Assembly (NCBI RefSeq): GCF_030127105.1
Contig: NZ_CP126162.1
Span: 124,001 to 188,000 of the forward strand
Length of the DNA: 64,000 nt
Direction: 5' to 3'
From: Haloarcula pelagica
GTDB lineage: Archaea; Halobacteriota; Halobacteria; Halobacteriales; Haloarculaceae
A model generated the notes under the pieces. The model was not told the origin of the DNA. It was given only the letters and a program-made list of their open reading frames with translations, and searched no databases. The position numbers and the translations under genes were made by a program. Below, one piece after another: positions 10,501-41,939 of the stretch (positions are counted from its first letter, which is position 1; each line of letters begins with the position of its first letter).

Positions 10501-13266
10501 GGACTGGTCGGCTTCAACGAAGGGGTGATCGAGGGTTCCTACGCGACCGGCGCGGCGATCTCCACGGACAGCAGCGGGGGCGACGCCGGTGGGCTGGTCG
10601 GCGAAAACGGCGGGGCCTCCTCGTCGGGGACAGTCCAGCGTTCCTACGCCACCGGAAGCGTCAGTACCAACGGCGGAAACGCCGGGGGGTTGGTCGGTCA
10701 CAACACCGACCAGGGGACGGTCGAACTGTCCTACTGGGACGTGGGAACGACGGGTGTCGACCAGGCGACCGGCTCCGACACGGGCACACTGTCGGCGGTC
10801 GCGGGCCTCGGCTCGACGGGTGCAGGGGGCCCGGCCGTGGCCGCGACTGGTGACACGGTCTACGACACCATGCCCGGGCTGGACTTCGCTTCGACGTGGA
10901 CCGTCACCAGTGAATATCCCCGGCTCAAGTGGGAGCGCGTCGACGGGCTCACCGTCGATTCGCTCGGCGCCACGTCACCGACAGTCGGCGAGGGCGAAGC
11001 GGGGACGATCACGGTGACGGCGACCGACGACCAGGGGAGCCCCGCCGACGGCGTGACCGTCGAGGTGGCGACCGCGGCCGGCCTCTCGGGGCTCGGCGGC
11101 GAGGCAGTCACCGACGCGAACGGTCAAGTAACGTTCTCGTTCACCGAGGACACGGCCGGCGACTACGCCCCCGGATTCGCCTGGAAGTACGACGACGAGG
11201 TCGGTGAAACAGTCACCACACAGTCACTCGTCAGCGTCCGAGACGGGCCGGAAGTAGACGCCATCACGCGAACCGGCGCGAGTCCGACGAACGCGGCCAC
11301 CGTCGAGTTCGACGTGACCTTCTCCGAACGCGTTACCGGGGTCGACACCGGTGATTTCGACACCACACAGGTCAGTGGCGACGTGACGGGATCGGTCGCC
11401 ACCGTCGGTGGCTCCGGTAGCAGCTACACCGTCACCGTCGACTCCGTCACCGGTGAGGGTGCGTTCCGACTCGACCTCGTCGACGACGACAGCATCACTG
11501 CCGCGGACAGCGGGATCGCGCTCGGCGGTGTCGGGACCAGCGGCGGTGGCGACGGGAGTGCGGACGGCGAGCGTTACCGGATCGACACCACCGAGCCGAC
11601 GTTCAGCGCGGGCGCCACGAACACCGTCCCGGTGAACGAGGGGACGACCGGCGTCGTCCTCGACATCGACGCCAACGACAGCGCCGGCAGCGACGATGCT
11701 GCCGTCGACTACTCGCTCGGCGGCGTCGACGCCGGCCCGTTCAGTCTCGACACGGACACCGGTGAGTTGTCCCTCGACGACCCACAGGAGTTCGAGCGTC
11801 CGAGCGACGACGACGGGGACGGCGACTACGACCTGACGGTCACGGCCACCGACGACGCCGGGAACACCGGGACACAGCGCCTCACCGTCTCACTCGCCGA
11901 CGTGGACGAGGCGCCGACGTTCAGTTCGAGCGCGTCCGCCAGAATCGCCGGGGACGCCACGACCGGAGACGGTGTCTTCGATGCCGACGCCACCGTCGGC
12001 GCTGCCGCCGACGACGGTGTGAGTTACGCGATCACCGGCGGCAACGTCGATGTCTCGGGCGACGGTGTCGCCCCGTTCGAGATCGACCGTTCGACCGGGC
12101 AGATCGTCCTCGCTGACGCCGACGACATCGACCGCTCCGTCAGGACTAGGTTCTCGCTCGCCGTCACGGCCAGCGAAGGCACCGCATCCGCGACACAGAC
12201 GGTCACGGTGACCGTCACCGACGCCGCTACACCGACCGTCTCCACGTTCAGCGTCGCGAATCCCGCGGATCGAGACATCGTCGCTTCCGTCGAGTCCGAC
12301 GAGCGACTGGCGACCGTAGCTGTCGCCATCGGCGGTGCGGAGACGGCGACGCTGCCGACGGGTGCGTTCGCCGAGACCGACGACGGCGACGGGACGTACA
12401 CCTACACAGCGACGTACACGGGTGGGACCGACGGTATCTACACTGCCACCCTCGACGCGGCTGTCGACGCCGCCGGCAACGACGGCGCGGGCGGAGAATC
12501 CGACAGCGTGACCGTCGACACGGAGGGGCCAGTCGCCAACGCGTCGTTCGATCGGACGGTCGACGTGGGCCAGCGACTGATCCTCGACGGTAGGGCGTCG
12601 ACCGACGCGGTCGGGATCAGCCGTTACGAGTGGGATGTCGACGGTGACGGCGTCTTCGAGGAGACCGGCCGTACCGCGACCCACGCCTGGCCGACACCCG
12701 GGATCGAGGTGGTGGTCCTCCGGGTGACAGACCTCGAAGGACGGACCGCTACGGAGACACTGACCGTCTCCGTCGAGGCGGTGAAGACGCCGACGCCGTC
12801 GCCACCCCCGACACCGGTCGGGCCGGTGTTCTCGGTCGTCGGTCTGGACGCTCCCGCGACAGTCACTGCCGGAGAGCCTCGGAACCTCTCCGTCACCGTT
12901 CGAAACCAGGGGGACACTGCCGGGACGTACGCTGGGTCTGTTGGGGTCAACGGGACCGCCGTAGCGACGACGAGCATCGAGGTCGACGCCGGGGAGACAG
13001 CCACCGCAGTGGTTTCGGTAGCGTTCGGCGGGGCCGGGCCACGGACGGTTTCGGTCGGCAACGCATCGCGAGAGCTTACGGTCGAGCCTGCAGCGTCCCC
13101 GTCGGCGGCGGCGGTGTATCGCAGTGACGACGGCCGCGTCTCCGTCTCCGAGGCGGCCGAGGCCGTCGAGCGATACGACAGCGGTGTCGAACTACCGGGA
13201 TACGGTCCGCTGTCGGCGGCCGACGTTATGTCGGTCATCGCTGCCGCCAACGAGGACAGCGAGTGA
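7504..13266 (+). CDS. Giant secreted adhesin-like protein with GLUG blocks, Ig/cadherin/PKD/CARDB-like domains and dockerin-like end
   Basis: A 1920-residue protein with a Sec-type signal (hydrophobic residues ~13-33, cleavage after VASADA). Three homologous blocks of roughly 310-400 residues start near residues 37, 442 and 819. Each opens with DC..LSW.T..SG..YYE.DSL.KLQCI and then runs through many GLUG-type repeats (GGLVG.N.GT.. S.A.G). After these come an Ig-like domain (~1147-1245), a second Ig-type segment (~1245-1362), two cadherin-like domains (~1362-1577), another Ig-like stretch, a PKD domain (~1675-1758), a TPTPSPPPTP linker and a CARDB-like domain (~1774-1864). A dockerin-like tail (SDDGRVSVSEAAEAVERYDS) ends it. 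GLUG repeats are known from secreted adhesins and proteases. No PGF-CTERM anchor or transmembrane tail is seen. The start is GTG. Confidence 0.85.
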   Translation: MTGQSSVRLRVGTLSAVLAVSLFAAVGLGFVGVASADAPTATDCSGFSWTTQQLSGEAYYEVDSLEKLQCIQTKGLSNNYVLTSDIDASETATWNGGKGFDPIGDPNGKFTGTFHGDGHTISGLSIDRGGTSDIGLFGTVSPGGTVRSVRLDGGTVTGGEYVGALVGTNNGTVSQSVATVEITAYGGRVGGLVGDSGGTVEDSHATGAVFSTDNGRIGGLVGENDGTVEASYATGDVTSESANGGRVGGLVGLDRGTIRYAYATGDVTTDIVYGGGLVGETYGTIEDSYATGDVTADTYDAAGLAGSSTSVTIRRTYATGAVSITNGGTGGLVGDVDNGGFGSTIANSYWDAGTTDQGSAFGTTYGDVTTSGLTSFGTTADTAPAPEMQGSSAKGNMPGLDFTNTWETVESEDPDAAMDGYPILRALDRKAQLRAQGIYEIAPTESDCNALSWSTRTISGETYYEVDSLVKLQCIQTKGLGDNYVQTQDIDASETGEWNDRSGFDPIGDKDNEFTGTFDGNGYTISGLIIDRGGTYSVGLFSEIGPGGTVKTVGLEGGSVTGTRRVGQLTGYNDGTVEDSHATGEITGRDRVGGLVGRNDGTVRRSYASGEPTRGSDWFGGLVGFNQGMIDRSFAARAVVGGGGSTSAGGLVGVSTGTIADSYATGSVTSSWYAGGVLGSFQADPGGVVRRSYATGALSVDDETQGIGGLVGGSAVSPTTVEQAYWDVGTTNEESVSTGDGWDPITFTAVSGFGATADTAPAPEIQGSNAKGNMPGLDFTNTWETVASENPDAAMDGYPILRALDRTVQLRAQGNTPDTTPSVADCADLSWATRDISGTTYYEIDSLYKLQCIENRGLGNDYVLTGDIDASETGEWNGGDGFDPIGDPTTRFTGTFDGDGYTISGLTIDRENTRFIGLFGVVGPSGAITNVDLTGATVTGWESVGPLVGANVDGTITNATAAGTTTATGSTAGGLVGFHGGTISRSAATGTSTASSEAGGLVGFNEGVIEGSYATGAAISTDSSGGDAGGLVGENGGASSSGTVQRSYATGSVSTNGGNAGGLVGHNTDQGTVELSYWDVGTTGVDQATGSDTGTLSAVAGLGSTGAGGPAVAATGDTVYDTMPGLDFASTWTVTSEYPRLKWERVDGLTVDSLGATSPTVGEGEAGTITVTATDDQGSPADGVTVEVATAAGLSGLGGEAVTDANGQVTFSFTEDTAGDYAPGFAWKYDDEVGETVTTQSLVSVRDGPEVDAITRTGASPTNAATVEFDVTFSERVTGVDTGDFDTTQVSGDVTGSVATVGGSGSSYTVTVDSVTGEGAFRLDLVDDDSITAADSGIALGGVGTSGGGDGSADGERYRIDTTEPTFSAGATNTVPVNEGTTGVVLDIDANDSAGSDDAAVDYSLGGVDAGPFSLDTDTGELSLDDPQEFERPSDDDGDGDYDLTVTATDDAGNTGTQRLTVSLADVDEAPTFSSSASARIAGDATTGDGVFDADATVGAAADDGVSYAITGGNVDVSGDGVAPFEIDRSTGQIVLADADDIDRSVRTRFSLAVTASEGTASATQTVTVTVTDAATPTVSTFSVANPADRDIVASVESDERLATVAVAIGGAETATLPTGAFAETDDGDGTYTYTATYTGGTDGIYTATLDAAVDAAGNDGAGGESDSVTVDTEGPVANASFDRTVDVGQRLILDGRASTDAVGISRYEWDVDGDGVFEETGRTATHAWPTPGIEVVVLRVTDLEGRTATETLTVSVEAVKTPTPSPPPTPVGPVFSVVGLDAPATVTAGEPRNLSVTVRNQGDTAGTYAGSVGVNGTAVATTSIEVDAGETATAVVSVAFGGAGPRTVSVGNASRELTVEPAASPSAAAVYRSDDGRVSVSEAAEAVERYDSGVELPGYGPLSAADVMSVIAAANEDSE
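8637..8790 (+). repeat. Direct repeat 1 within the GLUG gene
   Basis: This 154-base unit encodes the junction at the end of GLUG block 1 (TADTAPAPEMQGSSAKGNM and following). It is nearly identical to bases 9768-9921, exactly 1131 bases (377 codons) downstream, so a duplication or recombination between copies keeps the frame. Confidence 0.85.
9768..9921 (+). repeat. Direct repeat 2 within the GLUG gene
   Basis: Second copy of the 154-base unit, ending GLUG block 2. Only a few bases differ from 8637-8790, far fewer than in the surrounding block sequence, which suggests recent duplication or gene conversion. The third block ends with a diverged version (near 10858-10900). Confidence 0.85.
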
Positions 13267-14492: not shown

Positions 14493-16811
14493 ATGCCAGA
14501 CCGAGAATTCCACGGCCAAATCGGCCGTACGTACGACGAATCGGAACCGTGGTGGCCCGCGGAGACGCGAGCGCCCGAAGACGCACCGAACGTGTTGTTG
14601 ATCACCCTCGACGATGTCGGCTTCGGCCAACTGGGCTGTTTCGGCGGCCTCGTCGACACGCCGAACATCGACCGTCTCGCCGAGAACGGCCTCCGGTACA
14701 ACAACTTCCACACGACCGCCCTGTGCTCGCCCACGCGGTCGTGTCTCATGACCGGCCGAAACCACCATTCGAACGGGATGGCCGGCATTACCGAGATCTC
14801 GACGGGCTTCCCCGGCTACAACGGGAACATTCCCCACGAGAACGGAATGATCCCCGAGATGCTCGTCGAGGAAGGGTTCAGCACGCACCACCTCGGCAAG
14901 TGGCACCTCACGCCCGCCCAATCGACGAGCGCGGCCGGTCCGTACGATCAGTGGCCGTTACAGCGTGGTTTCGAACGGTTCTACGGCTTCCTCGGCGGCG
15001 ACACCGACCAGTACACGCCGACACTCGTCCACGACAACCACCAGACCGAGCCACCGACAACGCCCGAAGAGGGGTATCACCTGACCGAGGACCTCGCTCA
15101 GCGCGCGATCGAGTTCATCGGCGACGCGAAGCAGGTCGACCCGGACAAACCCTTCTTTACGTACTTCTGTCCCGGGGCGTGCCACGCCCCCCACCAGGTC
15201 CCCGAGGAGTGGATCGAGAAGTACGAAGGCGAGTTCGACATGGGCTGGGACGCGGCCCGCGAGCAGATCCTGGAGCAACAGAAGAAAGAAGGCGTCGTGC
15301 CCGAGAACACGGAGCTGTCCCCGCGGAATCCGGACGTTCGCGAGTGGGCGTCGCTCTCGGAGGACGAACAGCGCCTGTACGCCCGGATGATGGAGGTGTT
15401 CGCCGGCTTCCTCGAGCACACCGACGCCCAGATCGGGAGAGTGCTCGACTACCTCGAAGAACTGGGCGAGCTTGAGAACACCCTCGTGATGCTCGTCTCG
15501 GACAACGGCGCTAGCGCCGAAGGGGGCCACACCGGCTCTGTCAACGAGAACCGCTTCTTCAACAACGTCCCCGAGGACCTCGAAGACAACCTCGAAGCGA
15601 TGGACACCCTCGGCGGCCCCGAGCACTTCAACCACTACCCGTGGGGGTGGGCGTGGGCGGGCAACACCCCGTTCCGGCGCTGGAAGCGAGAGACCTACCG
15701 CGGCGGGGCGAGCGATCCGCTCGTCGTCTCCTGGCCCGAGGGCATCGAGGCCGAAGGCGAGGTCCGTGACCAGTTCGTCCACGCCATCGACATCGTGCCC
15801 ACGATACTGGAAGCGACCGGTATCGACGCGCCCGACGAGGTCAAAGGCTACTCGCAGTCGGAGATCGAAGGGACGAGCTTCGCCTACACATTCGACGAAC
15901 CCGACGCGCCCGAACAACACACCACCCAGTACTTCGAGATGCTCGGCACGCGTGCCATCTATCACGACGGCTGGCGGGCGGTCCACCCCTGGCCGTTCGG
16001 CGAGCCGATGACCGCCGAGGACCTCTCTGCGACCACCCTCGAGGACTCGGGCTGGGAGCTCTACCACGTCGAGGAGGACTTCTCGGAGGCCCACGACGTA
16101 GCCAGCGAACACCCGGAGAAGGTGTTGGAGCTCGCCCAGTTGTGGTGGACCGAGGCCGGTCGCCACAACGTCCTCCCCCTGGACGGCCGCGGTACCCAGC
16201 GGCTCGCGGAAGCGCGACCACAGCCGGGCAAACCCCGCGATCGGTACGTCTACTATCCGGGTGGCCAGCACGTCCCCGAGAACGCCGCCGTCAAAGTGTT
16301 CAACCGCGACCACAGCATCACGGCGGACCTGGTAGTGCCGGTGGGCGGCGCGGAGGGCGTCTTGCTCGCTCACGGGAGCCGGTCGGGCGGCTACGCCCTG
16401 TACGTCGACGAGAACAGGCTGAAGTACGTCCACAACTACGTCGGCGTCGAGGAGTATCACGTCGCTGCCGACGAGATGCTCCCTGAGGGCGATGTCTCCG
16501 CCCGGATGGAGTTCGAGGTGACGGGCGAGGCGGACGTGGCCAACGGGAAAGGGGCGCCCGGGACCGTCCGGCTCTACTACGACGATAGACAGGTCGGCGA
16601 AGCCGAGATTCCCGTCACGACTCCCCTCACGACCGGGCTCACCGCCGGACTGAGCTGTGGCTACGACGCGGTCAACGCGACCAGCGACGCCTACCGCGAC
16701 CGTGCGCCGTTCGCGTTCACCGGCGACATCGCCCGGGTGGTCGTGGATGTCAGCGGCGAACCGTTCGTCCACGAGGAAAAAGAGATGGACCGCCTCATGG
16801 CGAGAGAATAA
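14493..16811 (+). CDS. Arylsulfatase, formylglycine-dependent (tandem copy 1)
   Basis: A 772-residue sulfatase of the long arylsulfatase type, without a signal peptide. The N-terminal metal site (NVLLITLDDVGFGQLG) precedes the sulfatase signature CSPTRSCLMTGR, with Cys78 as the residue converted to formylglycine and Arg82. LGKWHL follows (Lys136, His138), and SDNGASAEGG supplies further metal and active-site residues. The last ~170 residues are a beta-rich C-terminal domain. It hydrolyses sulfate esters; the substrate is unknown. ATG 14493 is chosen over 14463 because the paralogue starts at the same MPDREFHG. It is 18 bases from copy 2 and is followed by its maturase gene, so the three genes look like one operon. 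Confidence 0.93.
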   Translation: MPDREFHGQIGRTYDESEPWWPAETRAPEDAPNVLLITLDDVGFGQLGCFGGLVDTPNIDRLAENGLRYNNFHTTALCSPTRSCLMTGRNHHSNGMAGITEISTGFPGYNGNIPHENGMIPEMLVEEGFSTHHLGKWHLTPAQSTSAAGPYDQWPLQRGFERFYGFLGGDTDQYTPTLVHDNHQTEPPTTPEEGYHLTEDLAQRAIEFIGDAKQVDPDKPFFTYFCPGACHAPHQVPEEWIEKYEGEFDMGWDAAREQILEQQKKEGVVPENTELSPRNPDVREWASLSEDEQRLYARMMEVFAGFLEHTDAQIGRVLDYLEELGELENTLVMLVSDNGASAEGGHTGSVNENRFFNNVPEDLEDNLEAMDTLGGPEHFNHYPWGWAWAGNTPFRRWKRETYRGGASDPLVVSWPEGIEAEGEVRDQFVHAIDIVPTILEATGIDAPDEVKGYSQSEIEGTSFAYTFDEPDAPEQHTTQYFEMLGTRAIYHDGWRAVHPWPFGEPMTAEDLSATTLEDSGWELYHVEEDFSEAHDVASEHPEKVLELAQLWWTEAGRHNVLPLDGRGTQRLAEARPQPGKPRDRYVYYPGGQHVPENAAVKVFNRDHSITADLVVPVGGAEGVLLAHGSRSGGYALYVDENRLKYVHNYVGVEEYHVAADEMLPEGDVSARMEFEVTGEADVANGKGAPGTVRLYYDDRQVGEAEIPVTTPLTTGLTAGLSCGYDAVNATSDAYRDRAPFAFTGDIARVVVDVSGEPFVHEEKEMDRLMARE

Positions 16812-16829
16812 CCGAACCAAGAGAACCCG

Positions 16830-19148
16830 ATGCCAGACCGAGAATTCCACGGCCACGTCGGCCGTACGTACGACGAATCCGAGCCCTGGTGGCCCGCGGA
16901 GACGCGAGCACCCGAGGACGCCCCGAACGTGTTGTTGATCACCCTCGACGATGTCGGTTTCGGCCAACTGGGCTGTTTCGGCGGCCTCGTCGACACGCCG
17001 AACATCGACCGTCTCGCCGAGAACGGCCTCCGGTACAACAACTTCCACACGACGGCACTCTGCTCGCCGACGCGGAGCTGTCTGATGACCGGTCGGAACC
17101 ACCACTCGAACGCGATGGCCGGCATCACCGAGGCGTCGACGGGCTTCCCCGGCTACAACGGGCACATCCCCCACGAGAACGGGATGGTCTCGGAGGCCCT
17201 CGTCGAGGAGGGGTTCAGCACCTACCACCTCGGCAAGTGGCACCTCACGCCCGCGGAATCGACGAGCGCGGCCGGCCCGTACGACCAGTGGCCGTTACAG
17301 CGAGGATTCGAACGGTTCTACGGGTTCCTCGGTGGCGACACCGATCAGTACACGCCCGCACTCGTCCACGACAACCACCAGACCGAGCCGCCAGCGACCC
17401 CCGAGGAGGGCTACCACTTCACCGAGGACATCGCTCAGCGCGCGATCGAGTTCATCGGCGACGCGAAGCAGGTCGACCCGGACAAACCCTTCTTCACGTA
17501 CTTCTGTCCCGGGGCGTGCCACGCCCCTCACCAGGTCCCCGAGGAGTGGATCGAGAAGTACGAAGGCGAGTTCGACATGGGCTGGGACGCGGCCCGCGAG
17601 CAGATCCTGGAGCAACAGAAGAAGGAGGGTGTCGTGCCCGAGGATACAGAACTGTCCCCGCGGAATCCGGACGTTCGCGAGTGGGCGTCGCTCTCGGAGG
17701 ACGAACAGCGCCTGTACGCCCGGATGATGGAGGTGTTCGCCGGCTTCCTCGAACACACCGACGCTCAGATCGGGAAGGTGCTCGACTACCTCGAAGAACT
17801 GGGCGAACTCGACGACACCCTCGTGATGCTCGTCTCGGACAACGGCGCCAGCGCCGAGGGCGGTCCCACCGGGTCGGTCGACGAGAACCGCTTCTTCAAC
17901 AACGTCCCCGAGAGTCTGGAGGAGAACCTCGAAGCGATGGACGACCTCGGCGGGCCCGACTACTTCAACCACTACCCGTGGGGGTGGGCGTGGGCGGGCA
18001 ACACCCCGTTCCGGCGCTGGAAGCGAGAGACCTACCGCGGCGGGGCGAGCGATCCGCTCGTCGTCTCCTGGCCCGAAGGCATCGACGCCGCGGGCGAGGT
18101 CCGCGACCAGTTCGTCCACGCCATCGACATCGCGCCGACCATCTACGAAGCGGTCGGCATCGACCCGCCCGAGGAGGTCAAGGGGTACTCGCAGTCGCCC
18201 ATCGAGGGCGAGAGCTTCGCGTACACCTTCGAGAACCCAGACGCACCTGAACAGCACACTACCCAGTACTTCGAGATGATCGCGACGCGCGCCATCTACC
18301 ACGACGGCTGGCGAGCGGTCCACCCGTGGCCGTTCGGGGAACGGATCACCGCCGAGGACCTCTCGGCGACCAGTCTTGAGGATTCGGGTTGGGAACTGTA
18401 CAACCTCGAGGAGGACTTCGCGGAGGCGAACGATGTCTCGGGCGAGCACCCCGAGAAGGTGCTGGAACTCGCACAGCTATGGTGGACCGAGGCCGGCAAG
18501 TACGACGTGCTCCCGCTCGACGGCCGCGGCGTCGAGCGACTGGGCGAGCCCAGGCCACAGCCAGGGAAAGCCCGTGACCAGTACGTCTACCACCCGGGCG
18601 GCCAGCACGTCCCCGAGAACGCCGCCGTGCGCGTACTGAACCGCGACCACAGCATCACCGCGGACCTGACCGTGCCAGTCGGCGGCGCGGAGGGCGTCCT
18701 GCTCGCCCACGGGAGCCGGTCGGGCGGCTACAGCCTGTACGTCGACGACAACCGACTACACTACGTCCACAACTACGTCGGCGTCGAGGAGTATCTGGTC
18801 TCGGCGGACGAGCCCCTCCCGGAGGGCGACATCTCGGTGCGGCTGGAGTTCGAGGCGACCGGCGAACCAGATGTCGCCAACGGGAAGGGCGTTCCTGCGA
18901 CGGTCAGCCTCTACTACGGCGACCAGCAGGTTGGCCAGGGCGACCTCCCGAAGACGGTCCCGAACATGATTGGGATCGTCGCGGGCTTGAGCTGTGGCAA
19001 GGACAGCGTCAGCGCCGTCACCGACGCCTACCGCGACCGTGCGCCGTTCGCGTTCACCGGCGATATCGCGCGGGTGGTCGTGGATGTCAGCGGCGAACCG
19101 TTCGTCCACGAGGAAAAAGAGATGGACCGCCTCATGGCTCAGGAGTGA
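16830..19148 (+). CDS. Arylsulfatase, formylglycine-dependent (tandem copy 2)
   Basis: It has the same length (772 residues) and motif set as copy 1: CSPTRSCLMTGR with Cys78, LGKWHL, SDNGASAEGG and the same C-terminal domain. Long stretches are identical at DNA level, for example around 17979-18070 against 15642-15735 and the last ~90 coding bases. Differences concentrate in parts of the C-terminal half (TVPNMIGIVAGLSCGKDS here, TTPLTTGLTAGLSCGYDA in copy 1). It may differ in substrate or be a dosage duplicate. It starts 18 bases after copy 1 and ends 39 bases before the formylglycine-generating enzyme gene. Confidence 0.93.
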   Translation: MPDREFHGHVGRTYDESEPWWPAETRAPEDAPNVLLITLDDVGFGQLGCFGGLVDTPNIDRLAENGLRYNNFHTTALCSPTRSCLMTGRNHHSNAMAGITEASTGFPGYNGHIPHENGMVSEALVEEGFSTYHLGKWHLTPAESTSAAGPYDQWPLQRGFERFYGFLGGDTDQYTPALVHDNHQTEPPATPEEGYHFTEDIAQRAIEFIGDAKQVDPDKPFFTYFCPGACHAPHQVPEEWIEKYEGEFDMGWDAAREQILEQQKKEGVVPEDTELSPRNPDVREWASLSEDEQRLYARMMEVFAGFLEHTDAQIGKVLDYLEELGELDDTLVMLVSDNGASAEGGPTGSVDENRFFNNVPESLEENLEAMDDLGGPDYFNHYPWGWAWAGNTPFRRWKRETYRGGASDPLVVSWPEGIDAAGEVRDQFVHAIDIAPTIYEAVGIDPPEEVKGYSQSPIEGESFAYTFENPDAPEQHTTQYFEMIATRAIYHDGWRAVHPWPFGERITAEDLSATSLEDSGWELYNLEEDFAEANDVSGEHPEKVLELAQLWWTEAGKYDVLPLDGRGVERLGEPRPQPGKARDQYVYHPGGQHVPENAAVRVLNRDHSITADLTVPVGGAEGVLLAHGSRSGGYSLYVDDNRLHYVHNYVGVEEYLVSADEPLPEGDISVRLEFEATGEPDVANGKGVPATVSLYYGDQQVGQGDLPKTVPNMIGIVAGLSCGKDSVSAVTDAYRDRAPFAFTGDIARVVVDVSGEPFVHEEKEMDRLMAQE

Positions 19149-19187
19149 ACGGTCCGGCCAACAGACACAGTCCCACACCCAGAACCC

Positions 19188-20165
19188 ATGACTTCGCATT
19201 CAGAGACGGCACGCACGAGCCCACCGGGTGACCCGCCGGAACCCGAGATGGAGTGGATACCGGGTGGAACCTTCCGGATGGGCTCCGAGGAGTTCTACCC
19301 CGAAGAAGCGCCCGTCCGGACCGTCACGGTCGACGGCTTCTGGATGGACCGCGCGCCCACGACGAACCGGGAGTTCGCCGCGTTCGTCGCCGACACCGGC
19401 TACACGACGGTCGCCGAACGCGACCCCGACCCCGAGGACTACCCCGGGGTAGCCCCCGAGGACCTGGTCCCGGGATCGGCGGTGTTCCGACAGCCGGACG
19501 GGCCGGTAGACCACCGGGACCCGAACGAGTGGTGGGAGTACGTCCCCGGTGCGGACTGGCGACACCCACGCGGGCCGGACAGTGACCTCGACGGTCGGAT
19601 GGACCACCCAGTCGTCCACGTCGCCCACGAGGACGCGGCGGCGTTCGCCGACTGGGCCGGCAAGCAGTTGCCGACGGAGACCCAGTGGGAGCGCGCCGCC
19701 CGCGGCGGTCTGGAGGGCAAACGGTTCGTCTGGGGTGACGAACACGTCCCCGGCCGGTTGATGGCGAACACGTGGCAGGGCGAGTTTCCCCACGAGAACA
19801 CGGAACTCGACGGCTACGCCCGAACGTCGCCGGTCGGAGCGTTCCCCGAGAACGGGTTCGGACTCGTCGACGCGGCCGGGAACGTCTGGGAGTGGACTCG
19901 CGACTGGTACAGCGACGACCCGACCGCTGGCGCGTCCGACTCGCCCGCCTGCTGTACGCCGACGAACCCACGCGGCGTCTCCGAAGACCAGAGCGTCGAC
20001 CCGCGAGACCCCTCGGAGGTTCCCCGGAAGGTCCTCAAGGGCGGGTCACACCTCTGTGCGCCGAACTACTGCTTCCGGTACCGGCCGGCGGCGCGGTACC
20101 CCGAACCGATCGACACCTCGACGAGCCACGTGGGGTTTCGGTGTGTGGTCGCCGAAACGCCGTGA
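19188..20165 (+). CDS. Formylglycine-generating enzyme (sulfatase-modifying factor family)
   Basis: A 325-residue protein of the FGE-sulfatase (SUMF1) fold. It begins its domain at MEWIPGGTFRMGSEEFYPEE and includes HPVVHVAHEDAAAFADWAGK, LPTETQWERAARGG, GNVWEWTRDWY and GGSHLCAPNYCFRYRPA. Cys290 and Cys295, with four residues between, match the pair that binds copper and carries out aerobic oxidation of the sulfatase Cys to formylglycine. Its place directly behind two Cys-type sulfatases indicates that it activates them. No signal peptide is seen, so maturation is probably cytoplasmic. The ATG is in frame with the N-terminus and sits 39 bases after the sulfatase stop. Confidence 0.93.
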   Translation: MTSHSETARTSPPGDPPEPEMEWIPGGTFRMGSEEFYPEEAPVRTVTVDGFWMDRAPTTNREFAAFVADTGYTTVAERDPDPEDYPGVAPEDLVPGSAVFRQPDGPVDHRDPNEWWEYVPGADWRHPRGPDSDLDGRMDHPVVHVAHEDAAAFADWAGKQLPTETQWERAARGGLEGKRFVWGDEHVPGRLMANTWQGEFPHENTELDGYARTSPVGAFPENGFGLVDAAGNVWEWTRDWYSDDPTAGASDSPACCTPTNPRGVSEDQSVDPRDPSEVPRKVLKGGSHLCAPNYCFRYRPAARYPEPIDTSTSHVGFRCVVAETP

Positions 20166-20231: not shown

Positions 20232-20972
20232 ATGATCGCGGTGCTCGCCGGATCGGCCGACAACTTCCCGGTCGCTGCGGGCCTGTTCACGGTGGCGCTC
20301 GCGCTCGTACATCTCCGTACCGGACGGCTAAAGGTCACCGTGTTCGGCCGGAATCGGCAGTTGCTCTCCGCCGCGGGTGGGGCGACGGTCGCGTACGTCT
20401 TCGTCCTGCTGCTTCCCGAAGTGAGCGAGACTGCCCTGACCGTCGGCGAACTCCGCGGCGAGGCGCTGATCGCCGAGCAGTACGTGTATCTGCTGGCACT
20501 GTTCGGGTTTGTCGCCTTCTACGGGGTGGAAGTCGCCGTCGCGCACCGCTCGGGCAACACCGAGGGGTCGTCGCTGGTCTTCTGGGCGCACGTCGCCGTC
20601 TTCGCGCTCTACAGCGGCGTCATCGGGTACCTGCTGTTCCACCAGGAAGTGCGAGGGCTCTCGAACCTGTTCTTCTACGCGCTGGCGATGGGGCTTCACT
20701 TCGGGATCACGGACTACGGCCTCCGCCGGCACCACGGGGACGAGTTCGATCGAACCGGTCGCTGGGTTCTCGCCGGTGCGACGCTGTTGGGGGGCGGTGT
20801 CGGAGTCGCCGTCGAACTCGGGGACCTCCTCGTCGCGACCCTGTTCGGGTTCCTGGCGGGTGCGATCGTTCTCAACGTCATCAAGGAGGAACTCCCCGAT
20901 CTGAGCGAGAGCCGGTTCGTCGCGTTCGCGGCCGGTGCGGTCCTCTACACGGTCGTCCTGTTGTTCGCGTGA
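20232..20972 (+). CDS. Polytopic membrane protein, weakly ZIP-like
   Basis: A 246-residue protein with about eight hydrophobic helices. A His-containing part (HFGITDYGLRRHHGDE) and a final pair of helices with GFLAGAIVLNVIKEELPD recall the membrane region of ZIP metal transporters. The match is loose and the metal-site residues are incomplete by eye. The start at 20232 is the first ATG of the frame, 66 bases after the FGE gene on the same strand. It could be the distal gene of the sulfatase operon or independent. The function is not assigned. Confidence 0.7.
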   Translation: MIAVLAGSADNFPVAAGLFTVALALVHLRTGRLKVTVFGRNRQLLSAAGGATVAYVFVLLLPEVSETALTVGELRGEALIAEQYVYLLALFGFVAFYGVEVAVAHRSGNTEGSSLVFWAHVAVFALYSGVIGYLLFHQEVRGLSNLFFYALAMGLHFGITDYGLRRHHGDEFDRTGRWVLAGATLLGGGVGVAVELGDLLVATLFGFLAGAIVLNVIKEELPDLSESRFVAFAAGAVLYTVVLLFA

Positions 20973-21033: not shown

Positions 21034-22206
21034 ATGGCCGAGGACGCGCAGGGCGAGGGCTCGTTACGCCTGTGGCTCCGGCAGACCCCCCTGACCTGGT
21101 GGCTGCTCGGCGTCGCCCTGTTCGCCGTCCTGGTGTGGGTCGGCGTCAGGTACGTCGGTTGGATCGTCTTCGGGCTGTTCACCTACTACGTCGGCCGTCC
21201 GGTCGCCCGCTGGCTCCAGCGGCGGATCGCCTCCCGGTCGGTGACCGCCGGACTCACGCTCACGTTCGTCATCCTCCCGGTCCTCCTGTTCCTCGTGGTG
21301 TTCCTCTCGGTCGCGCTGGGACAGGCTCTCGAACTCCTCTCGTCGGAGGCGGTGGTGGCACTCGTCGAACGCCTCCCGATCCAGACGGAGAATCTCCCGA
21401 CGGACCCCGTCGAGATCGTGACCCTGCTACTCGACGACCCCGAACTCACCTCGGTACTGGGCCAGTTCGGGGTCGCCGTCGGGGCGGTCACTGGAACGCT
21501 GTTCAACACGTTTCTCGCGCTCCTGTTCGCCTTTTTCCTGCTCGCCGAGGACCGACGGCTCGCGGGGTGGTTCGAGCGCACCGTCCTGGGGCCGGACTCG
21601 CTGACCGCCGACTACCTCCGCAACGTCGACCGGGGCCTGACATCCGTCTACTTCGGGTACACGCTCACTATCTTCGTCGTCATCGTACTGGCGGCCGTCG
21701 TCTACAGCCTCTTCAACCTGATCGTGCCCGAGGGACTCCGTATCCCGTCGCCGCTGCTCCTGGCCGTCGTCACCGGCGTCTTCACGTTGATCCCACTCGT
21801 TGGGCGCTCGATCGTCTACGCGTTCATCGTGGCTGTGCTCTCGCTACAGGCGGTCAGCGTCCGTCCGGCGCTGCTCTGGATCCCGGTCGTCTTCTTCGTC
21901 CTGATGGTGCTCGTGTTCGACAACGTCGTCCGGACGTACATCCGCCCGGCCCTCTCGGGGAAGGCGTACCACATCGGGCTCGTCATGTTCGCGTACCTGC
22001 TGGGACCGGTGCTGTTGGGGTGGTACGGGATCTTCGCCGGCCCGTTACTGATGGTCCTGACGGTCGAGTTCGTCGTCGACGTTCTCCCGCGCCTCGTCGG
22101 GGCCGACCCCGAGCCCGTGCGGTCGGCCGAGGCCGCGCCGGCCGGAAACGGCTCGATGGAGCGCAGTGACTCCGGAGGAGACGACGGGGACGCTCCGTCC
22201 GGGTGA
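21034..22206 (+). CDS. AI-2E family transporter (UPF0118), copy 1
   Basis: A 390-residue membrane protein with about eight helices. It shows the family layout: two or three N-terminal helices, a soluble middle with the repeated-leucine stretch (LLSSEAVVALVERLP), a helical hairpin (FNTFLALLFAFFLLAEDRRL) and a C-terminal core (LLLAVVTGVFTLIPLVG, then LGPVLLGWYGIFAGPLLMV). The family includes putative autoinducer-2 exporters and Na+/H+ antiporters, so the substrate cannot be predicted. An AT-rich GTTAACTATTATC about 20 bases upstream supports the start at 21034. A paralogue lies at 30930-31943. Confidence 0.88.
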   Translation: MAEDAQGEGSLRLWLRQTPLTWWLLGVALFAVLVWVGVRYVGWIVFGLFTYYVGRPVARWLQRRIASRSVTAGLTLTFVILPVLLFLVVFLSVALGQALELLSSEAVVALVERLPIQTENLPTDPVEIVTLLLDDPELTSVLGQFGVAVGAVTGTLFNTFLALLFAFFLLAEDRRLAGWFERTVLGPDSLTADYLRNVDRGLTSVYFGYTLTIFVVIVLAAVVYSLFNLIVPEGLRIPSPLLLAVVTGVFTLIPLVGRSIVYAFIVAVLSLQAVSVRPALLWIPVVFFVLMVLVFDNVVRTYIRPALSGKAYHIGLVMFAYLLGPVLLGWYGIFAGPLLMVLTVEFVVDVLPRLVGADPEPVRSAEAAPAGNGSMERSDSGGDDGDAPSG

Positions 22207-24766: not shown

Positions 24767-26167
24767 ATGCGACTCGTTCACGTGCTCGTCCCCCGAGGGA
24801 AGCGAAACGCTGTCCTCCAGGAGTTAGACGACGAGGGGATCGACTACGCGGTCTCTCGGGAGGTCGGCAGAGACGAGTACGAAGCCCAGGTGTCGTTTCC
24901 ACTGCCGTCGAACGCGGTCGAACCGGTACTGAATCGCTTGCGGGCCGTCGGACTCGAAGAGGACGGCTTCACGGTGATCGTCGCAGCGGAGACGGTCGTC
25001 TCGAAACGGTTCGACGAACTCCGGTCCAACTACGCCGACCCGACACTCTCACGCCCCGAACTCATCGCTCGGGCGGAGGACATGGCGCCCGCGCTGTCGA
25101 CCTTCGTGGTGATGACGATCGTGAGCGCGGTCGTCGCGACGACGGGTCTCCTCTCGAACTCCGCAGCCGTGATCATCGGCGCGATGATCATCGCACCCGT
25201 GATGGGGCCGGCGATCGCTGCGTCCGTCGGGAGCGTGCTGTCGAACCGGACGCTCTTCCGCCGCGGCGTCGGGTTGCAGGTCTTGGGAGTGGGACTCGCC
25301 GTCGTCAGCGCACTGGCGTTCTCGCTACTGTTGAAAGAGACGCTGCTTGTGCCACCCGGCTTCGATCCGTTCGCCGTCCCGCAGGTTCAAGAGCGGCTCA
25401 CGCCGAACGTGCTCTCGCTCGTCATCGCCATCGGTGCCGGTGTCGCAGCCGTGTTCAGCCTCACCAGGGGCGTCTCGTCGGTCCTCGTCGGGGCGATGAT
25501 CGCAGTCGCGTTGGTCCCGCCGGCTGCGACCGTCGGAATCGGCATCGCGTGGAACGACCCGCTCGCGATAGTCGAAGCCGGAACCTTGCTGCTCGTCAAT
25601 CTCCTGGCGGTCAACCTCGTCGCGCTCGGGCTCCTGTGGGTGACGGGGTACCGCCCGGTCGACACGGAACGGACCGGGTCGGCCCGGAGACAAACTGCCC
25701 TTACCCTGAGTGTCATCGTCGTCGCGCTCTTGGTCCTGAGCAGCGTGCTCGTCGCAATCAGTGCCCTCTCGCTCGTCGACGCTCGGTTCGAAACGTCCCT
25801 CCACGAAGAGATCGACGAGGTCCTCAACAAAGCGGAGTACCAGGGCGTTCGCCACGTGGAGACGCATATCGATGTCTCGCCACTCAGACACGTCCTGTTT
25901 GGCGAACAGATCGAGGTAACTGTCCTCGTCGACACGGGAGGTGGTCCCCCACCCGAGGGGTTGGCCGACGATATCCGGACGACGATCGCGGCCGAACAGG
26001 GCTTCGACGCGATCGTTATCGTCGAACCGGTCGACGCCTCTTTCCCAGCAGACGAACCCCGAACGCAACTGCTCTCCCCCCGAACTGTCCCGGTCGAGTC
26101 CGACCGTCGCCGTCTATCGCCGGCGGTCGAACCACGGCCCCGCCCGGCCGTTGCCCGGACTGGGTGA
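24767..26167 (+). CDS. DUF389 / TIGR00341 family membrane protein (copy 2)
   Basis: A 466-residue paralogue of the gene at 2598-4028, alignable from the first residue (MRLVHVLVPRGKRNAVLQEL). It has the same soluble N-terminal domain, the same core helices (IIGAMIIAPVMGPAIAASVG; ALVPPAATVGIGIAWNDP; LLLVNLLAVNLVALGLLWV) and a soluble C-terminus. The last ~40 residues are Pro/Arg-rich and specific to this copy. The molecular role of the family is unknown. It converges with the BrkB-type gene. Confidence 0.9.
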   Translation: MRLVHVLVPRGKRNAVLQELDDEGIDYAVSREVGRDEYEAQVSFPLPSNAVEPVLNRLRAVGLEEDGFTVIVAAETVVSKRFDELRSNYADPTLSRPELIARAEDMAPALSTFVVMTIVSAVVATTGLLSNSAAVIIGAMIIAPVMGPAIAASVGSVLSNRTLFRRGVGLQVLGVGLAVVSALAFSLLLKETLLVPPGFDPFAVPQVQERLTPNVLSLVIAIGAGVAAVFSLTRGVSSVLVGAMIAVALVPPAATVGIGIAWNDPLAIVEAGTLLLVNLLAVNLVALGLLWVTGYRPVDTERTGSARRQTALTLSVIVVALLVLSSVLVAISALSLVDARFETSLHEEIDEVLNKAEYQGVRHVETHIDVSPLRHVLFGEQIEVTVLVDTGGGPPPEGLADDIRTTIAAEQGFDAIVIVEPVDASFPADEPRTQLLSPRTVPVESDRRRLSPAVEPRPRPAVARTG

Positions 26168-28669: not shown

Positions 28670-29602
28670 TCAGCCCGTCACCTCGCCGCCCGATTCAGTC
28701 TCACCGGAGAGCGGATGCCGTCGCCAGTACCAGGTGACGAGCAGTGACACGACGAGCATGACGACGGCGAACGCGACGATGCTTGCGTCCGCCTCGGTGG
28801 CCGGGAACGCGCCGGTCGCGATAAACAGCGCGATGTTGACGTTGCGCCCGGCCGTCCCGAGCGCGAGGATTCGTCGGTTTTCGGCTGTCGGACCGCCCGT
28901 GAACCAGCCGACGAGGATAGTCAGGAGCACGAACAGTGTCATCACGAACAAGGCACCGGTCCCGAACAGCGCCGTGACCACGCGCAGTGCGCCACCGAAG
29001 TCCAGGGCGACGACGGCGACGAGCGCGCCGAGCAACGCCACGTTGGCCAGGCGCGTGAGTCGTCTCGCGGCGGCGTCCGCGAGCGCCGGTCGTCTGTCCC
29101 CGACGACGCCGCCGGCGACCAGCGGGAGCACGAGCACGACGAGCAACGGGACGAGAAACCGCCAGGGCGCGAACCGGGTAGAGAGGTCGAGGAGCGCGAG
29201 CGTGCCAGCGACGAGCACCGGCACGGTCACCGTTGCGACGATGGTCAAGGCGGCGGTCAGCCGGACGGCCTCGTGTGAGTTCACGCCCGTTATGGCGACC
29301 AACTGCGGGATGAAGGGAGCGCCGGGTGCGACTGCGACGAGCAACAGTCCGACGCGGATCGAGTTCGGGAGGGCGAACACGGCCCCGAGCAGGACTGCGA
29401 ACAGCGGGACAGCGAGCAGGTTCGCGAGAACCCACCGCGAGACGAGGTTGTACTCGCGGATCGTCCTGCGGACATCACCCCGCGTCAGTTGGGTCCCCAT
29501 CGCGGCCATCACGGCGACGATGGAGACGGTGGCGAGAAGCCCCTGGAGGCGGCCGAGGACGAAGCCCAGCGCGTCGACCGCGTCGGCGGGGGCTACCGGC
29601 AC
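28670..29602 (-). CDS. BASS-type (bile acid:sodium symporter family) transporter, copy 1
   Basis: A 310-residue protein with about nine to ten helices. The early AAMGTQL motif, the VAVAPGAPFIPQLVAITG crossover and GTAGRNVNIALFIAT match the core of the BASS/SBF fold. The family moves organic anions such as pyruvate or other keto acids with sodium; the substrate is unknown here. The start is a GTG at 29602. It is 57 bases downstream of a second BASS gene on the same strand, so this is a tandem pair. Confidence 0.82.
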   Translation of the reverse strand: MPVAPADAVDALGFVLGRLQGLLATVSIVAVMAAMGTQLTRGDVRRTIREYNLVSRWVLANLLAVPLFAVLLGAVFALPNSIRVGLLLVAVAPGAPFIPQLVAITGVNSHEAVRLTAALTIVATVTVPVLVAGTLALLDLSTRFAPWRFLVPLLVVLVLPLVAGGVVGDRRPALADAAARRLTRLANVALLGALVAVVALDFGGALRVVTALFGTGALFVMTLFVLLTILVGWFTGGPTAENRRILALGTAGRNVNIALFIATGAFPATEADASIVAFAVVMLVVSLLVTWYWRRHPLSGETESGGEVTG

Positions 29603-29659: not shown

Positions 29660-30541
29660 TCAATCGTCATAGGTCGCCTCCTCCCCCATCGGGGCCGGTT
29701 CGGCCCGCTCGGTGCGCTTGCCGAGTTCGCCGGCGACGACGATGAGCAGGCCCATCAGCGTCGCGCCGACGACGAGCATCACCACCACGTTCGGGTCCTC
29801 GAAGTTCGCGGCACCGACGACGAGGGCGGCGGAGACGTTGCGCTGGGCGGTGCCGAGGCCGACCACCGGTCTGGTGCCCTCGCTCGGTCCGCCCAGCAGC
29901 CACCCGACGCCGAGCGATCCGACGATGAGCACGGCGAACGCGAGCAACGCACCCGTCCCGATCACGCTGATCAGGGTCTGGAAGTTGAGGACCAGCATGA
30001 GCACCACCAGGAAGACGAGCGCGGTCGAAGAAACCTGATTGATGATCGGTTGCCAGCTCGCGGCTGTATCGGCGTAGCGGGCCTTCACGAACAGACCGAC
30101 CGCCAGCGGGAGGAGCATCAGGACGACGAGCGAACTCGCGATCTCGACCGGATCGACCTGCACACCGGGCAGGAGAAAGGGGAGCACGATCGGCACGTAC
30201 GCCACCGTCACCACCATCAACAGCACCATCAGCCCGACGCCGAAGGCCACGTCGGCCTTCGCCATCTCGACGAGTTTCGGCAGGAACGGCGCGCCGGCGG
30301 CCGTCGCCAGCAGGATCAGCCCGATCGACTGGGCGTCGCTGAGCGGGATCACGAGGAGGATCGCGTACGCGAGTAGTGGCACGAGAACGAAGTTGGCCAG
30401 CAGCGCCTTTCCGACCAGCGCGAGGTCCCGCAGCGGGTCGAGAATCTGCCCGACGGTGAGGTTCAGCCCCATCGCGAGCATGCTGGTCACGACGAACACA
30501 AGCACCGACAGCGTGGCGAGTGATTCGAGGATGACGGCCAC
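29660..30541 (-). CDS. BASS-type (bile acid:sodium symporter family) transporter, copy 2
   Basis: A 293-residue paralogue of the neighbouring gene. It has SMLAMGLNLTVGQIL, LATAAGAPFLPKLVEMAK and GLGTAQRNVSAALVVGA, the last matching the conserved crossover of the family. The start is GTG at 30541, six bases after the stop of a 75-residue frame, with a GGTGA Shine-Dalgarno-like stretch overlapping that stop. Copies 1 and 2 differ widely in sequence, so different substrates or a heteromeric carrier are both possible (inference). Confidence 0.85.
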   Translation of the reverse strand: MAVILESLATLSVLVFVVTSMLAMGLNLTVGQILDPLRDLALVGKALLANFVLVPLLAYAILLVIPLSDAQSIGLILLATAAGAPFLPKLVEMAKADVAFGVGLMVLLMVVTVAYVPIVLPFLLPGVQVDPVEIASSLVVLMLLPLAVGLFVKARYADTAASWQPIINQVSSTALVFLVVLMLVLNFQTLISVIGTGALLAFAVLIVGSLGVGWLLGGPSEGTRPVVGLGTAQRNVSAALVVGAANFEDPNVVVMLVVGATLMGLLIVVAGELGKRTERAEPAPMGEEATYDD

Positions 30542-34379: not shown

Positions 34380-34591
34380 CAGTGCCGGATCGCCTCCGAG
34401 GACAGACATGTTTGCGGCCACCCGAGATTCGTCCCGCCCGCACGGGACTGGGCGTGGCGCCCCGCCTCTCGGTGGCCGTGGGCGTGGTCTCGGACCGAAC
34501 GGGCTGTCTTTCGCTGCGAACTCATAGGTGGACGCTGGGATCGCTCGTGGTCGGTGCCACGGCGAACGGTGAGTGCAACGCCACGGCCGGC

Positions 34592-34599
34592 CTTTGTTA
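34592..34599 (-). promoter_or_regulatory. TAACAAAG octamer, leftward
   Basis: An exact octamer on the minus strand, about 213 bases before the start of the membrane-protein gene at 34379. Confidence 0.4.
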
Positions 34600-34814
34600 T
34601 CGTGCGAGAACCGGCGGGTCGTTCGAGTAACGCCGGCCTATGTGGTCTGGCCACCGAGTCGTAAGCCGCCCTCCCGTCGCCGAGGCCGGCGTCTGTGTCC
34701 CATGAACGAACGGCCAGCAGCCGTCCGGTCCGGTAGCAGATCAGCCAGGCCTGCACTGCGCCGCGTCTGTCGCTCCCGGGAAGTACGCCGTCATTCACCC
34801 GGGTCAGTGCCTGC

Positions 34815-34822
34815 TAACAAAG
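34815..34822 (+). promoter_or_regulatory. TAACAAAG octamer, rightward
   Basis: An exact octamer about 204 bases before the patatin gene start at 35026. If used as a promoter it would give a leader of roughly 180 bases. Confidence 0.4.
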
Positions 34823-35025
34823 GGGCCGGGTACTCGTGTCTCTACGTGGTCCGGCGTCGGGTCCCGACGCCGAGTCACGCGAGAGCGACAGAACCCGAAC
34901 ATGAGAGCCAAGAGAAGCGACTGGCGTCGAGCCCGCCGTCCCAGGAGTGCAGTCGTTTGTGGCCGCTCCGCGCCACATCCGTGCCGGCCGACCGTCTTCG
35001 CCGGCCGGGGTCCGCAGGTGGTTCG

Positions 35026-40190: not shown

Positions 40191-40715
40191 TCAGATCGTG
40201 TCGATAGCGGCCGCGACCGCGAGGAGAAAGGCGTCGTCCTCGCCCGGCATCACCTCGACGCCGTAAGTGTCCCGGATCCGGAACCACCGTTTCGAGACGG
40301 TGGCGACCGGCGTCCCTCGGCGGCTGATCGAGTACTCGTGATCGACGATGTTGCCCCGGACCTGTAACGGCGGTTCCCCGACAACGTCGATATCGAAGCG
40401 GTCTCGGAGCGGTGTCACGAGCGCCTTCTGGATCGTCGCGACCCGTTTCCCGTCCCGCTCGATCACCATCGTGTCCTTGAGCCGGAGGACACGCTGCTGG
40501 ACTCGGTACCTGGTCTGTCCCGCCTGGTCGGTGATCTGGATGGTGTTGCGCAGCCTGAGCGCTTTGCCGTCGACCCGGAACGCCGGTTCGCCCGCCGCCG
40601 TCTCGATGACGAAGTCCTTCCCGAACGTGACGAGTCGCTCCCGCATCTTGTACCGTGTTGCTCCGCCGGCCGCTCTGCGCCGTTCCGCCCGCCGCTGCCG
40701 TCGTCGCGGACTCAC
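40191..40715 (-). CDS. LURP-one-related (LOR/YxjI) family protein
   Basis: A 174-residue protein of the LOR fold, a twelve-stranded tubby-like barrel. Family landmarks are RERLVTFGKDFVIET (residues ~25-39), PAFRVDGKALRLRNTI, DTMVIERDGKRVATIQK and ISRRGTPVATVSKRWFRIRD. Tubby-like folds bind phosphoinositides in eukaryotes; the prokaryotic role is unknown. The start is a GTG at 40715; an internal ATG at 40646 would remove a basic extension. TAACAAAG lies 42 bases upstream of the GTG. Confidence 0.87.
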   Translation of the reverse strand: MSPRRRQRRAERRRAAGGATRYKMRERLVTFGKDFVIETAAGEPAFRVDGKALRLRNTIQITDQAGQTRYRVQQRVLRLKDTMVIERDGKRVATIQKALVTPLRDRFDIDVVGEPPLQVRGNIVDHEYSISRRGTPVATVSKRWFRIRDTYGVEVMPGEDDAFLLAVAAAIDTI

Positions 40716-41330: not shown

Positions 41331-41939
41331 ATGAGCACAGATCCACCGTCGACGACAGCGACCCGTCCGGCCGAACGACAGCGCGATTCACGATACCTCG
41401 TCGGTGCCGGACTCGTAATCGCAGTCCTTGGCATCGTCGCGATACTGGCCCCGCTCGTCACCGGACTCGGGCTCTCGCTCGCCTTCGGGACGCTGCTCGT
41501 CGTGGGCGGACTCGCCCACGTCGCACACGCGTTCAGGGCGCGTGGCTGGGTGGGGTCGTTCTGGCAGGTACTGCTGGCGATCGTCTACACGCTAGCGGGG
41601 GTTGCGCTGCTGGCGAACCCCGTTTTCGGACTGACGACGCTGACCGCACTCCTCATCGTGTACCTCGCCGTTTCGGGCCTCTTCGAACTGGTGATCGGGG
41701 TGAAGATGCGCCCGGACTCCCAGTGGGGCGGGTTCATCGTCAGCGGCGTCGTCACGATGGCCCTGGCGGGGCTGCTCTGGGCCGGGTTCCCCAGCAACGC
41801 CGATTGGGCGGTTGGTCTCCTGTTCGGGATCAGCCTCCTGACGACCGGGCTCGCGCTCGTCTCCGCCGGGTACTTCGGTCGAGACGCTTCAGCGGCGGAG
41901 AGCGGAGAGACAGCCGAACGCAGCCCACGGAGCGGCTAA
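41331..41939 (+). CDS. HdeD family (DUF308) membrane protein
   Basis: A 202-residue protein with three repeated helical hairpins typical of HdeD/DUF308: YLVGAGLVIAVLGIVAILAP; WQVLLAIVYTLAGVALLANP; GGFIVSGVVTMALAGLLW. HdeD is an acid-resistance membrane protein in enterobacteria; in archaea only a stress-related role is inferred. ATG 41331 is chosen over 41268 because the added residues are basic and not conserved. The upstream sequence contains an ATTCG/CGAAT inverted pair (41294-41308). Confidence 0.87.
   Translation: MSTDPPSTTATRPAERQRDSRYLVGAGLVIAVLGIVAILAPLVTGLGLSLAFGTLLVVGGLAHVAHAFRARGWVGSFWQVLLAIVYTLAGVALLANPVFGLTTLTALLIVYLAVSGLFELVIGVKMRPDSQWGGFIVSGVVTMALAGLLWAGFPSNADWAVGLLFGISLLTTGLALVSAGYFGRDASAAESGETAERSPRSG

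Follow-up and report, generated by a model that had tools for sequence, protein, structure and literature searches.

Introduction

Among solved sulfatases the arylsulfatase of Pseudomonas aeruginosa (AtsA, also PAS), which we take to be an intracellular enzyme, and among solved maturases the prokaryotic formylglycine-generating enzyme (FGE) 6s07, presumably that of Thermomonospora curvata, are closest to the products of three consecutive genes of the haloarchaeon Haloarcula pelagica which are the subject of this study: two tandem sulfatase genes, S1 and S2, and an FGE gene. The genes lie in a stretch of 64,000 nucleotides (assembly GCF_030127105.1, contig NZ_CP126162.1, positions 124,001 to 188,000 of the forward strand), hereafter the window, on a contig of 478,761 bases in an assembly of 4.46 Mb whose largest contig seen has 3.53 Mb. 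A similar arrangement is presumably that of the mycobacterial pair Rv0711/Rv0712, a sulfatase of about 780 residues with an adjoining FGE gene. For Mycobacterium tuberculosis nine putative sulfatases were listed, none of which had a known function or substrate at the time, according to the consulted part of PMC3675115. In SulfAtlas, AtsA is placed in family S1_4, and transfer from bacteria was proposed by its authors for the archaeal formylglycine sulfatases in general (PMC5066984, in the sections consulted).

For haloarchaea the picture is complicated by Agl30 and Agl31 of Halobacterium salinarum, one membrane-associated and the other soluble, whose sequences and predicted structures are sulfatase-like, yet which are described in the part of PMC11980604 that was consulted as N-glycan sulfotransferases; haloarchaeal proteins resembling PF00884 therefore need not be sulfatases. 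In an excerpt of a 2026 paper, a sulfatase is proposed to take part in the use of chondroitin sulfate by haloarchaea (PMC13260240). In the open-licence literature nothing was found joining haloarchaeal sulfatases with formylglycine, which is not the same as absence in print, nor, under that wording, anything joining sulfatase, haloarchaea and sulfated polysaccharide. No paper there joined any two of arylsulfatase, DUF389 and HdeD, no substrate was found there for the intracellular sulfatase subfamily of about 780 residues, and the phrase bile acid sodium symporter was absent from the top-listed matches among its papers on sulfatases and formylglycine.

Here, the locus is analysed by profile searches, structure prediction, genome surveys and phylogeny. 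The explanation that we consider probable, with moderate confidence, is a laterally acquired cytosolic module for organosulfate hydrolysis, in which FGE-activated sulfatases would act on a small organosulfate that is most likely imported by a permease of the SBF family.

Results

Sulfatases and maturase

S1, S2 and the FGE gene follow one another on the plus strand of the window (14493-20165) with intergenic gaps of 18 and 39 bases (Table 1). For S1 an upstream in-frame ATG is present at 14463, but the start at 14493 matches that of the paralogue. An initial annotation, made from the letters of the window, had assigned a Cys-type signature to both sulfatases, and the profile searches agree: the signature CSPTRSCLMTGR begins at Cys78 in S1 and in S2 (CSPTR), and the two proteins score 233 and 219 bits against PF00884, far above chance and above the Pfam cut-off of 25. 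Residues D40, D41, C78, R82, K136, H138, H231, D337 and N338 are invariant in 35 homologues and K398 is conserved in at least 90% of them. The residues for binding of metal and sulfate (D, D, K, H, H, D, N, K) are present and aligned with the catalytic residues of the P. aeruginosa arylsulfatase, among which Lys375 is confirmed in the consulted part of PMC5066984. By motif and residues, S1 and S2 are predicted formylglycine sulfatases of the Cys type, which would hydrolyse sulfate esters.

The closest solved structure to S1 by sequence is the P. aeruginosa arylsulfatase (E 6.8e-81, query residues 31-552). It is also the best PDB match of the predicted S1 structure (mean predicted local distance difference test score, pLDDT, 82.4), with a template modelling score of 0.82-0.84 by target length. 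AtsA resembles S1 in sequence, fold and catalytic residues, but the identity is 31-32% (Foldseek alignment), and S1 and S2 are about 240 residues longer and carry a C-terminal beta domain. Beyond the catalytic part, past about residue 580, the S1 model consists mostly of beta strands, and a PDB sequence search with residues 561-772 gave no match (best E 0.68).

The third gene had been read as an FGE with the pair Cys290/Cys295, and this assignment was upheld. The protein scores 263 bits against PF03781 (cut-off 23.3) and covers profile positions 2-254 of 255, the full domain length. Its nearest solved structure, 6s07, is matched over nearly the full length (E 3e-70), Cys290 and Cys295 being aligned with the two catalytic cysteines, which we take to be a copper-binding pair, and the non-FGE models of NCBIfam score far below their cut-offs. 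The window FGE differs from 6s07 in its haloarchaeal origin, in its acidity (acidic residues exceed basic ones by 29) and in having a single type of sulfatase in its genome to act on.

S1 and S2 had been called a tandem pair. They are adjacent and identical at 88.0% of protein and 87.0% of DNA positions; a fresh tandem duplication was nevertheless ruled out, since S2 groups in the tree described below with copies from two other genomes (G307 and G234; genomes and loci are cited by our own G and L handles) to the exclusion of S1, with a support of 99 in the Shimodaira-Hasegawa-like approximate likelihood-ratio test (SH-aLRT). G307 and G234 each hold a second sulfatase copy outside the S2 group, and S1 and S2 are older paralogues in this phylogeny. 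The identity of S1 and S2 is uneven along their length, with blocks of 150 bases ranging from 98% (best) to 75% (worst); gene conversion may have caused the better-matching parts.

Table 1. Features of the window discussed in the text (positions within the window)
Feature	Position	Strand	Basis
Sulfatase S1, 772 residues, Cys-type, without visible export signal	14493..16811	+	PF00884, arylsulfatase alignment, predicted structure
Cys78 codon of S1, predicted formylglycine in CSPTR	14724..14726	+	Cys invariant in 35-row alignment
Sulfatase S2, 772 residues, 88% identical to S1	16830..19148	+	PF00884, alignment, tree
Cys78 codon of S2, predicted formylglycine	17061..17063	+	CSPTR at residue 78
FGE, 325 residues, PF03781, only such place found in the genome	19188..20165	+	Pfam, 6s07 match, genome profile search
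Codons Cys290 to Cys295 of FGE, aligned to both cysteines of solved FGE 6s07	20055..20072	+	
Eight-helix membrane protein, predicted ZIP fold, 66 bases after FGE	20232..20972	+	Predicted structure, subgroup co-occurrence
AI-2E-family transporter, recurrent island neighbour	21034..22206	+	
DUF389 membrane protein, recurrent island neighbour	24767..26167	+	
SBF-family permease (PF01758), candidate importer, second type	28670..29602	-	PF01758, co-occurrence
SBF-family permease (PF01758), candidate importer, first type; relatives adjoin sulfatase in other genomes	29660..30541	-	
LURP-one-related protein, recurrent island neighbour	40191..40646	-	
HdeD/DUF308 membrane protein, recurrent island neighbour	41331..41939	+	

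Export signals and cellular location

All three proteins had been described as lacking export signals. With a simple hydropathy test on our own gene calls, rather than a signal-peptide predictor, the highest 19-residue Kyte-Doolittle mean within the first 60 residues of S1, S2 and FGE was 1.21, and neither an N-terminal hydrophobic stretch nor a twin arginine was found in the first 40 residues, in accordance with that description. Across the family, none of 103 members of 760-800 residues exceeded a hydropathy of 1.6 in the first 50 residues. The proposed cytoplasmic activation and catalysis agree with these results but would not be unusual, the nearest solved enzyme, that of P. aeruginosa, being presumably intracellular as well. 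The further proposal that the substrate must enter the cell has to be widened, as it would have to enter or arise inside.

Exclusivity within the genome

The whole genome contains 14 places matching PF00884, and CxPxR occurs only in S1 and S2; it was found nowhere in the other 12 PF00884 open frames, which lie on two contigs outside the window. PF03781 has a single place in the genome, the window FGE; among 14 control genomes four gave a PF03781 match, and Haloferax volcanii is not one of these four. A genome search for the anaerobic maturase anSME gave one match, which at 28 bits lies far below the cut-off of 349. As no further PF03781 place was found and CxPxR is confined among the PF00884 proteins to S1 and S2, these two and no others are evident sulfatase clients of the FGE. 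The module had been termed self-contained; this describes its chemistry well, but as a travelling set it is incomplete without the SBF permeases and the ZIP-fold protein described below. Some of the 12 proteins without CxPxR may be sulfotransferases similar to Agl30/Agl31 and not sulfatases.

Distribution and phylogeny

In a survey of 392 haloarchaeal genomes of the same order, a long sulfatase with at least 70% identity was found in 14, and a distant one (36-37% identity, E <= 1e-60) in 3 further genomes. The FGE clade, delimited at 69% identity or more (a limit set, like those of 278 and 321 bits used below, after the gaps in the lists had been seen), was present in 13 of the 14 sulfatase genomes and in none of the 378 others; any FGE at E <= 1e-30 occurred in 42 of the 392. 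In 12 of the 13 genomes FGE and sulfatase are 43 to 6,334 bases apart, and in G307 the distance is 315 kb.

The subfamily, of about 780 residues, has members in many bacterial phyla as well as in some archaea. Full-length relatives with 56-62% identity, taken from the best 80 of at least 481 confirmed relatives, belong to Cyanobacteria, Chloroflexota, Actinomycetota, Myxococcota, Acidobacteriota, Ignavibacteriota, Pseudomonadota, Methanosarcina, Bathyarchaeota and others. A relative on a plasmid of Mycobacterium riyadhense is 45.6% identical, and the incomplete gene table of its plasmid stretch of 22 kb lists neither SBF nor ZIP-type neighbours. A quick tree was calculated from 114 rows (LG+G4, SH-aLRT as the only support), all of which have the motif C[SA]P[ST]R. 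The 23 haloarchaeal rows, with two identical pairs among them, form one clade (SH-aLRT 100), to which the rows of the same subfamily from Methanosarcina and Bathyarchaeota do not belong, a placement that fits acquisition of the haloarchaeal set from bacteria.

SBF-family permeases

The two SBF proteins of the window score 54.0 and 48.2 bits against PF01758 (cut-off 24.3), and the SBF profile matches solved members of the family with E-values down to 1.4e-27. Together with FGE, SBF is the companion family found in most loci, with 29 loci each (a few genomes being counted twice). In haloarchaea it occurs in 11 of 16 sulfatase-carrying loci, the window included. The 14 sulfatase genomes contain 31 PF01758 places. 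From genome size, 0.24 of these would be expected at 12 kb or less from a sulfatase and 0.04 at 1 kb or less, but 15 and 7 were counted; a Poisson probability for this linkage is only a guide because the loci are related by descent. One of the 15 linked genes, in G034, is of the canonical type. With a profile built from the linked members, 16 genes in 10 genomes reached at least 278 bits, all in sulfatase genomes (10 of 14, against 0 of the 378 others), and the next match, at 254 bits, lies in a genome without the sulfatase. Tight arrangements were observed in G005, where sulfatase, SBF and FGE genes are arranged in this order and in the same orientation, separated by 66 and 77 bases, and in Haloferax massiliensis, where sulfatase and SBF genes are 18 bases apart.

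Outside the haloarchaea, 80 loci were compared (76 from the best relatives and 4 plasmid records). SBF genes, 18 in all, were present in 16 of them. Of the 18 genes, 16 have the orientation of the sulfatase gene, and 6 loci have an SBF gene 59-319 bases upstream or downstream of the sulfatase match, a count that has no bacterial background rate beside it. Because sulfatase and permease are linked, transport is suggested, and the SBF permease is the best candidate for a predicted importer of the sulfatase substrate.

A separate haloarchaeal SBF subgroup, from genomes without the long sulfatase, reads TTTxxRN in all 20 loci inspected (L196-L215); 18 of the 20 matches are flagged with a stop codon in their frame, perhaps simply the end of the gene.

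Possible exchange of the maturase

Among the 80 non-haloarchaeal loci a gene of the FGE cluster was found in 10 and a gene of the radical-SAM cluster in 17. Two members of the latter, in L112 and L121, were checked and reach 481 and 508 bits against TIGR03942, the model of the anaerobic sulfatase maturase (cut-off 349). In these and other bacterial or Methanosarcina loci, including L127 and L135, the sulfatase is of the same subfamily and has CxPxR, but the radical-SAM maturase replaces FGE. Depending on the host, a single sulfatase type is thus found with one or the other of two unrelated maturases. Neither maturase was found in 53 of the 80 loci, which means little because the flanks are unequal and often short. 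No locus holds both; as an indication of strict exclusion this is not strong, only about 2 such loci being expected by chance from 10 and 17. On the tree, the FGE or anSME label changes at least 8 times over 54 labelled rows (32 FGE, 22 anSME), several of which can share one locus.

The ZIP-fold neighbour

The membrane protein encoded directly after FGE has no match in Pfam (E 0.001) or NCBIfam, and the alignment of its family matched no PDB entry by sequence. The structure predicted for it from 7 sequences (pLDDT 79.7) matches the 8 ZIP entries of the PDB with Z 16.7-18.5, the next row having 7.5, and a Foldseek E-value of 3.4e-4. ZIP proteins are marked by a metal motif of the HNxPEG type; this was not seen in the alignment, in which H156, N215 and E220 are invariant. 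Members of the family occur widely in haloarchaea, in 128 of the 392 genomes, which rules it out as unique to the module. Such a restriction was kept for the subgroup scoring at least 321 bits on a profile built partly from members in sulfatase genomes: it occurs in 6 genomes of the survey, all with the sulfatase, and in 5 of these it lies within 1 kb of FGE, including G307, where the pair is far from the sulfatases. Supply of metal to FGE by this protein is a speculative suggestion.

The wider island

Several families recur around the sulfatases, namely DUF389, AI-2E, HdeD, DUF1269, LURP-one-related, BrkB and MscS-type proteins. By a count in which the near genes were picked by hand from the search lists, DUF389 is enriched around the sulfatases (about 65 genes in all, 5 of them at a distance of no more than 12 kb against 0.51 expected), as are LURP-one-related genes (4 of 11 against 0.09 expected). 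Much of the wider island may reflect a shared passenger history on a mosaic replicon.

Additionally, two adjacent genes at 38894-39496 and 39553-40140 encode proteins of about 200 residues without a Pfam match, and their relatives adjoin each other near a sulfatase in six loci (L073, L075, L076, L082, L096 and L098), L075 and L096, the latter the sulfatase locus of Haloferax marinum, being the same genome. The gene at 34573-36987 encodes a protein of 804 residues with a patatin-like phospholipase domain and SnoaL-like domains, and that at 7504-13266 a surface-type protein of 1920 residues with GLUG, cadherin and PKD domains, which adjoins the MscS gene flanking the sulfatases. A PHROGs search gave uninformative matches only.

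Discussion

In the proposed module, FGE would oxidise Cys78 of S1 and S2 to formylglycine, and the sulfatases, each with an arylsulfatase-like catalytic domain and a C-terminal beta domain, would then hydrolyse a small organic sulfate ester in the cytosol. The ester would most likely be brought in by the co-travelling SBF-family permease, and the ZIP-fold protein might, speculatively, serve the metal supply of FGE.

Several observations weigh against this explanation. Among the sulfatase genomes, G034 is without an FGE of the clade (it has one with 47% identity), and in G105 the clade FGE gene (L081, 14928-15845) is interrupted by an in-frame TGA, due either to decay or to a sequencing error, while the nearby sulfatase gene has no such codon. 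The permease subgroup is absent from four of the 14 sulfatase genomes (G104, G207, G329 and G358), and SBF is absent from the neighbour clusters in 64 of the 80 non-haloarchaeal loci, as judged by blastp clustering over unequal flanks. In the window itself the permease genes start 8.5 kb past FGE on the opposite strand and are therefore not co-transcribed with it. Moreover, the canonical EVGMQN stretch reads GTAQRN and GTAGRN in the two window proteins. This stretch (E-x-x-x-Q-N) is presumably the region of the SBF sodium-binding site, and in an alignment to solved symporters its Glu and Gln are missing in both proteins. The window permeases thus share the profile match with the SBF/BASS transporters (bacterial ASBT homologues, NTCP) but differ in this stretch, for which reason the linked SBF proteins may not be sodium symporters; they are here named permeases and the coupling is left aside. 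The Arg of the replaced stretch is invariant in 20 aligned SBF rows, but had to be dropped as a mark of sulfatase linkage, as all 20 SBF proteins inspected from sulfatase-free genomes (L196-L215) have it within TTTxxRN.

Instead of being imported, the substrate might be made by the cell, the sulfatases removing sulfate from the cell's own sugars, lipids or their precursors without an importer, and SBF handling sulfate or a product. This is conceivable since N-glycans of Halobacterium salinarum are sulfated by the sulfatase-like Agl30/Agl31, as far as the consulted part of PMC11980604 goes. The 12 PF00884 proteins without CxPxR could be enzymes of that type in the present genome. We nevertheless consider an endogenous substrate unlikely, as the module occurs only here and there, in 14 of 392 genomes, close relatives (56-62% identity) occur in many bacterial phyla, for which we know of no shared haloarchaeal glycans, and the permease linkage suggests transport. 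Comparably improbable is that the locus is a membrane-stress island (DUF389, DUF1269, HdeD, AI-2E, MscS, BrkB) in which the sulfatase would help the cell to adapt to stress, for instance by detoxification, and its link to SBF would reflect a shared passenger history. Stress families do recur around the sulfatase in haloarchaea, some bacteria and Methanosarcina, and DUF389 and LURP-one-related genes are enriched as given above; but the SBF link is tighter than those to stress families and recurs up- and downstream of the sulfatase across phyla, whereas the stress-type neighbours differ between loci. Finally, Cys78 might be unmodified, or the proteins might act mainly on other esters such as phosphates or phosphonates, with another role for the FGE-like protein. 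Promiscuity is known in the superfamily (PMC5488252, in the part consulted) and the FGE fold has relatives such as EgtB and PvdO, but the match to true FGEs over the full length, catalytic cysteine pair included, the low scores of the non-FGE models and the motif shared by all rows of the tree make this very unlikely.

The proposed import and cytosolic hydrolysis of an organosulfate thus remains the favoured explanation. Beyond the first reading of the locus, the analysis adds an FGE without another evident client, a transferable trans-domain sulfatase subfamily with two maturases, and a specific permease as most frequent companion. A more far-reaching version, which we regard as doubtful, would be a cytosolic organosulfate pathway across domains, consisting of the sulfatase of about 780 residues, a maturase repeatedly swapped between FGE and anSME, a dedicated non-canonical SBF protein and, in haloarchaea, a ZIP-fold metal supplier; if true, it would be a route of sulfate-ester transport so far unrecognised for the family. 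Most probably the biochemistry will prove to be ordinary. The results distinguish, within one haloarchaeon, the evident formylglycine sulfatases from its remaining proteins of sulfatase fold, which is timely as some haloarchaeal look-alikes were shown to be sulfotransferases. With one FGE and two targets, the locus offers a clean test system, and a candidate importer is named for a widespread subfamily of intracellular sulfatases.

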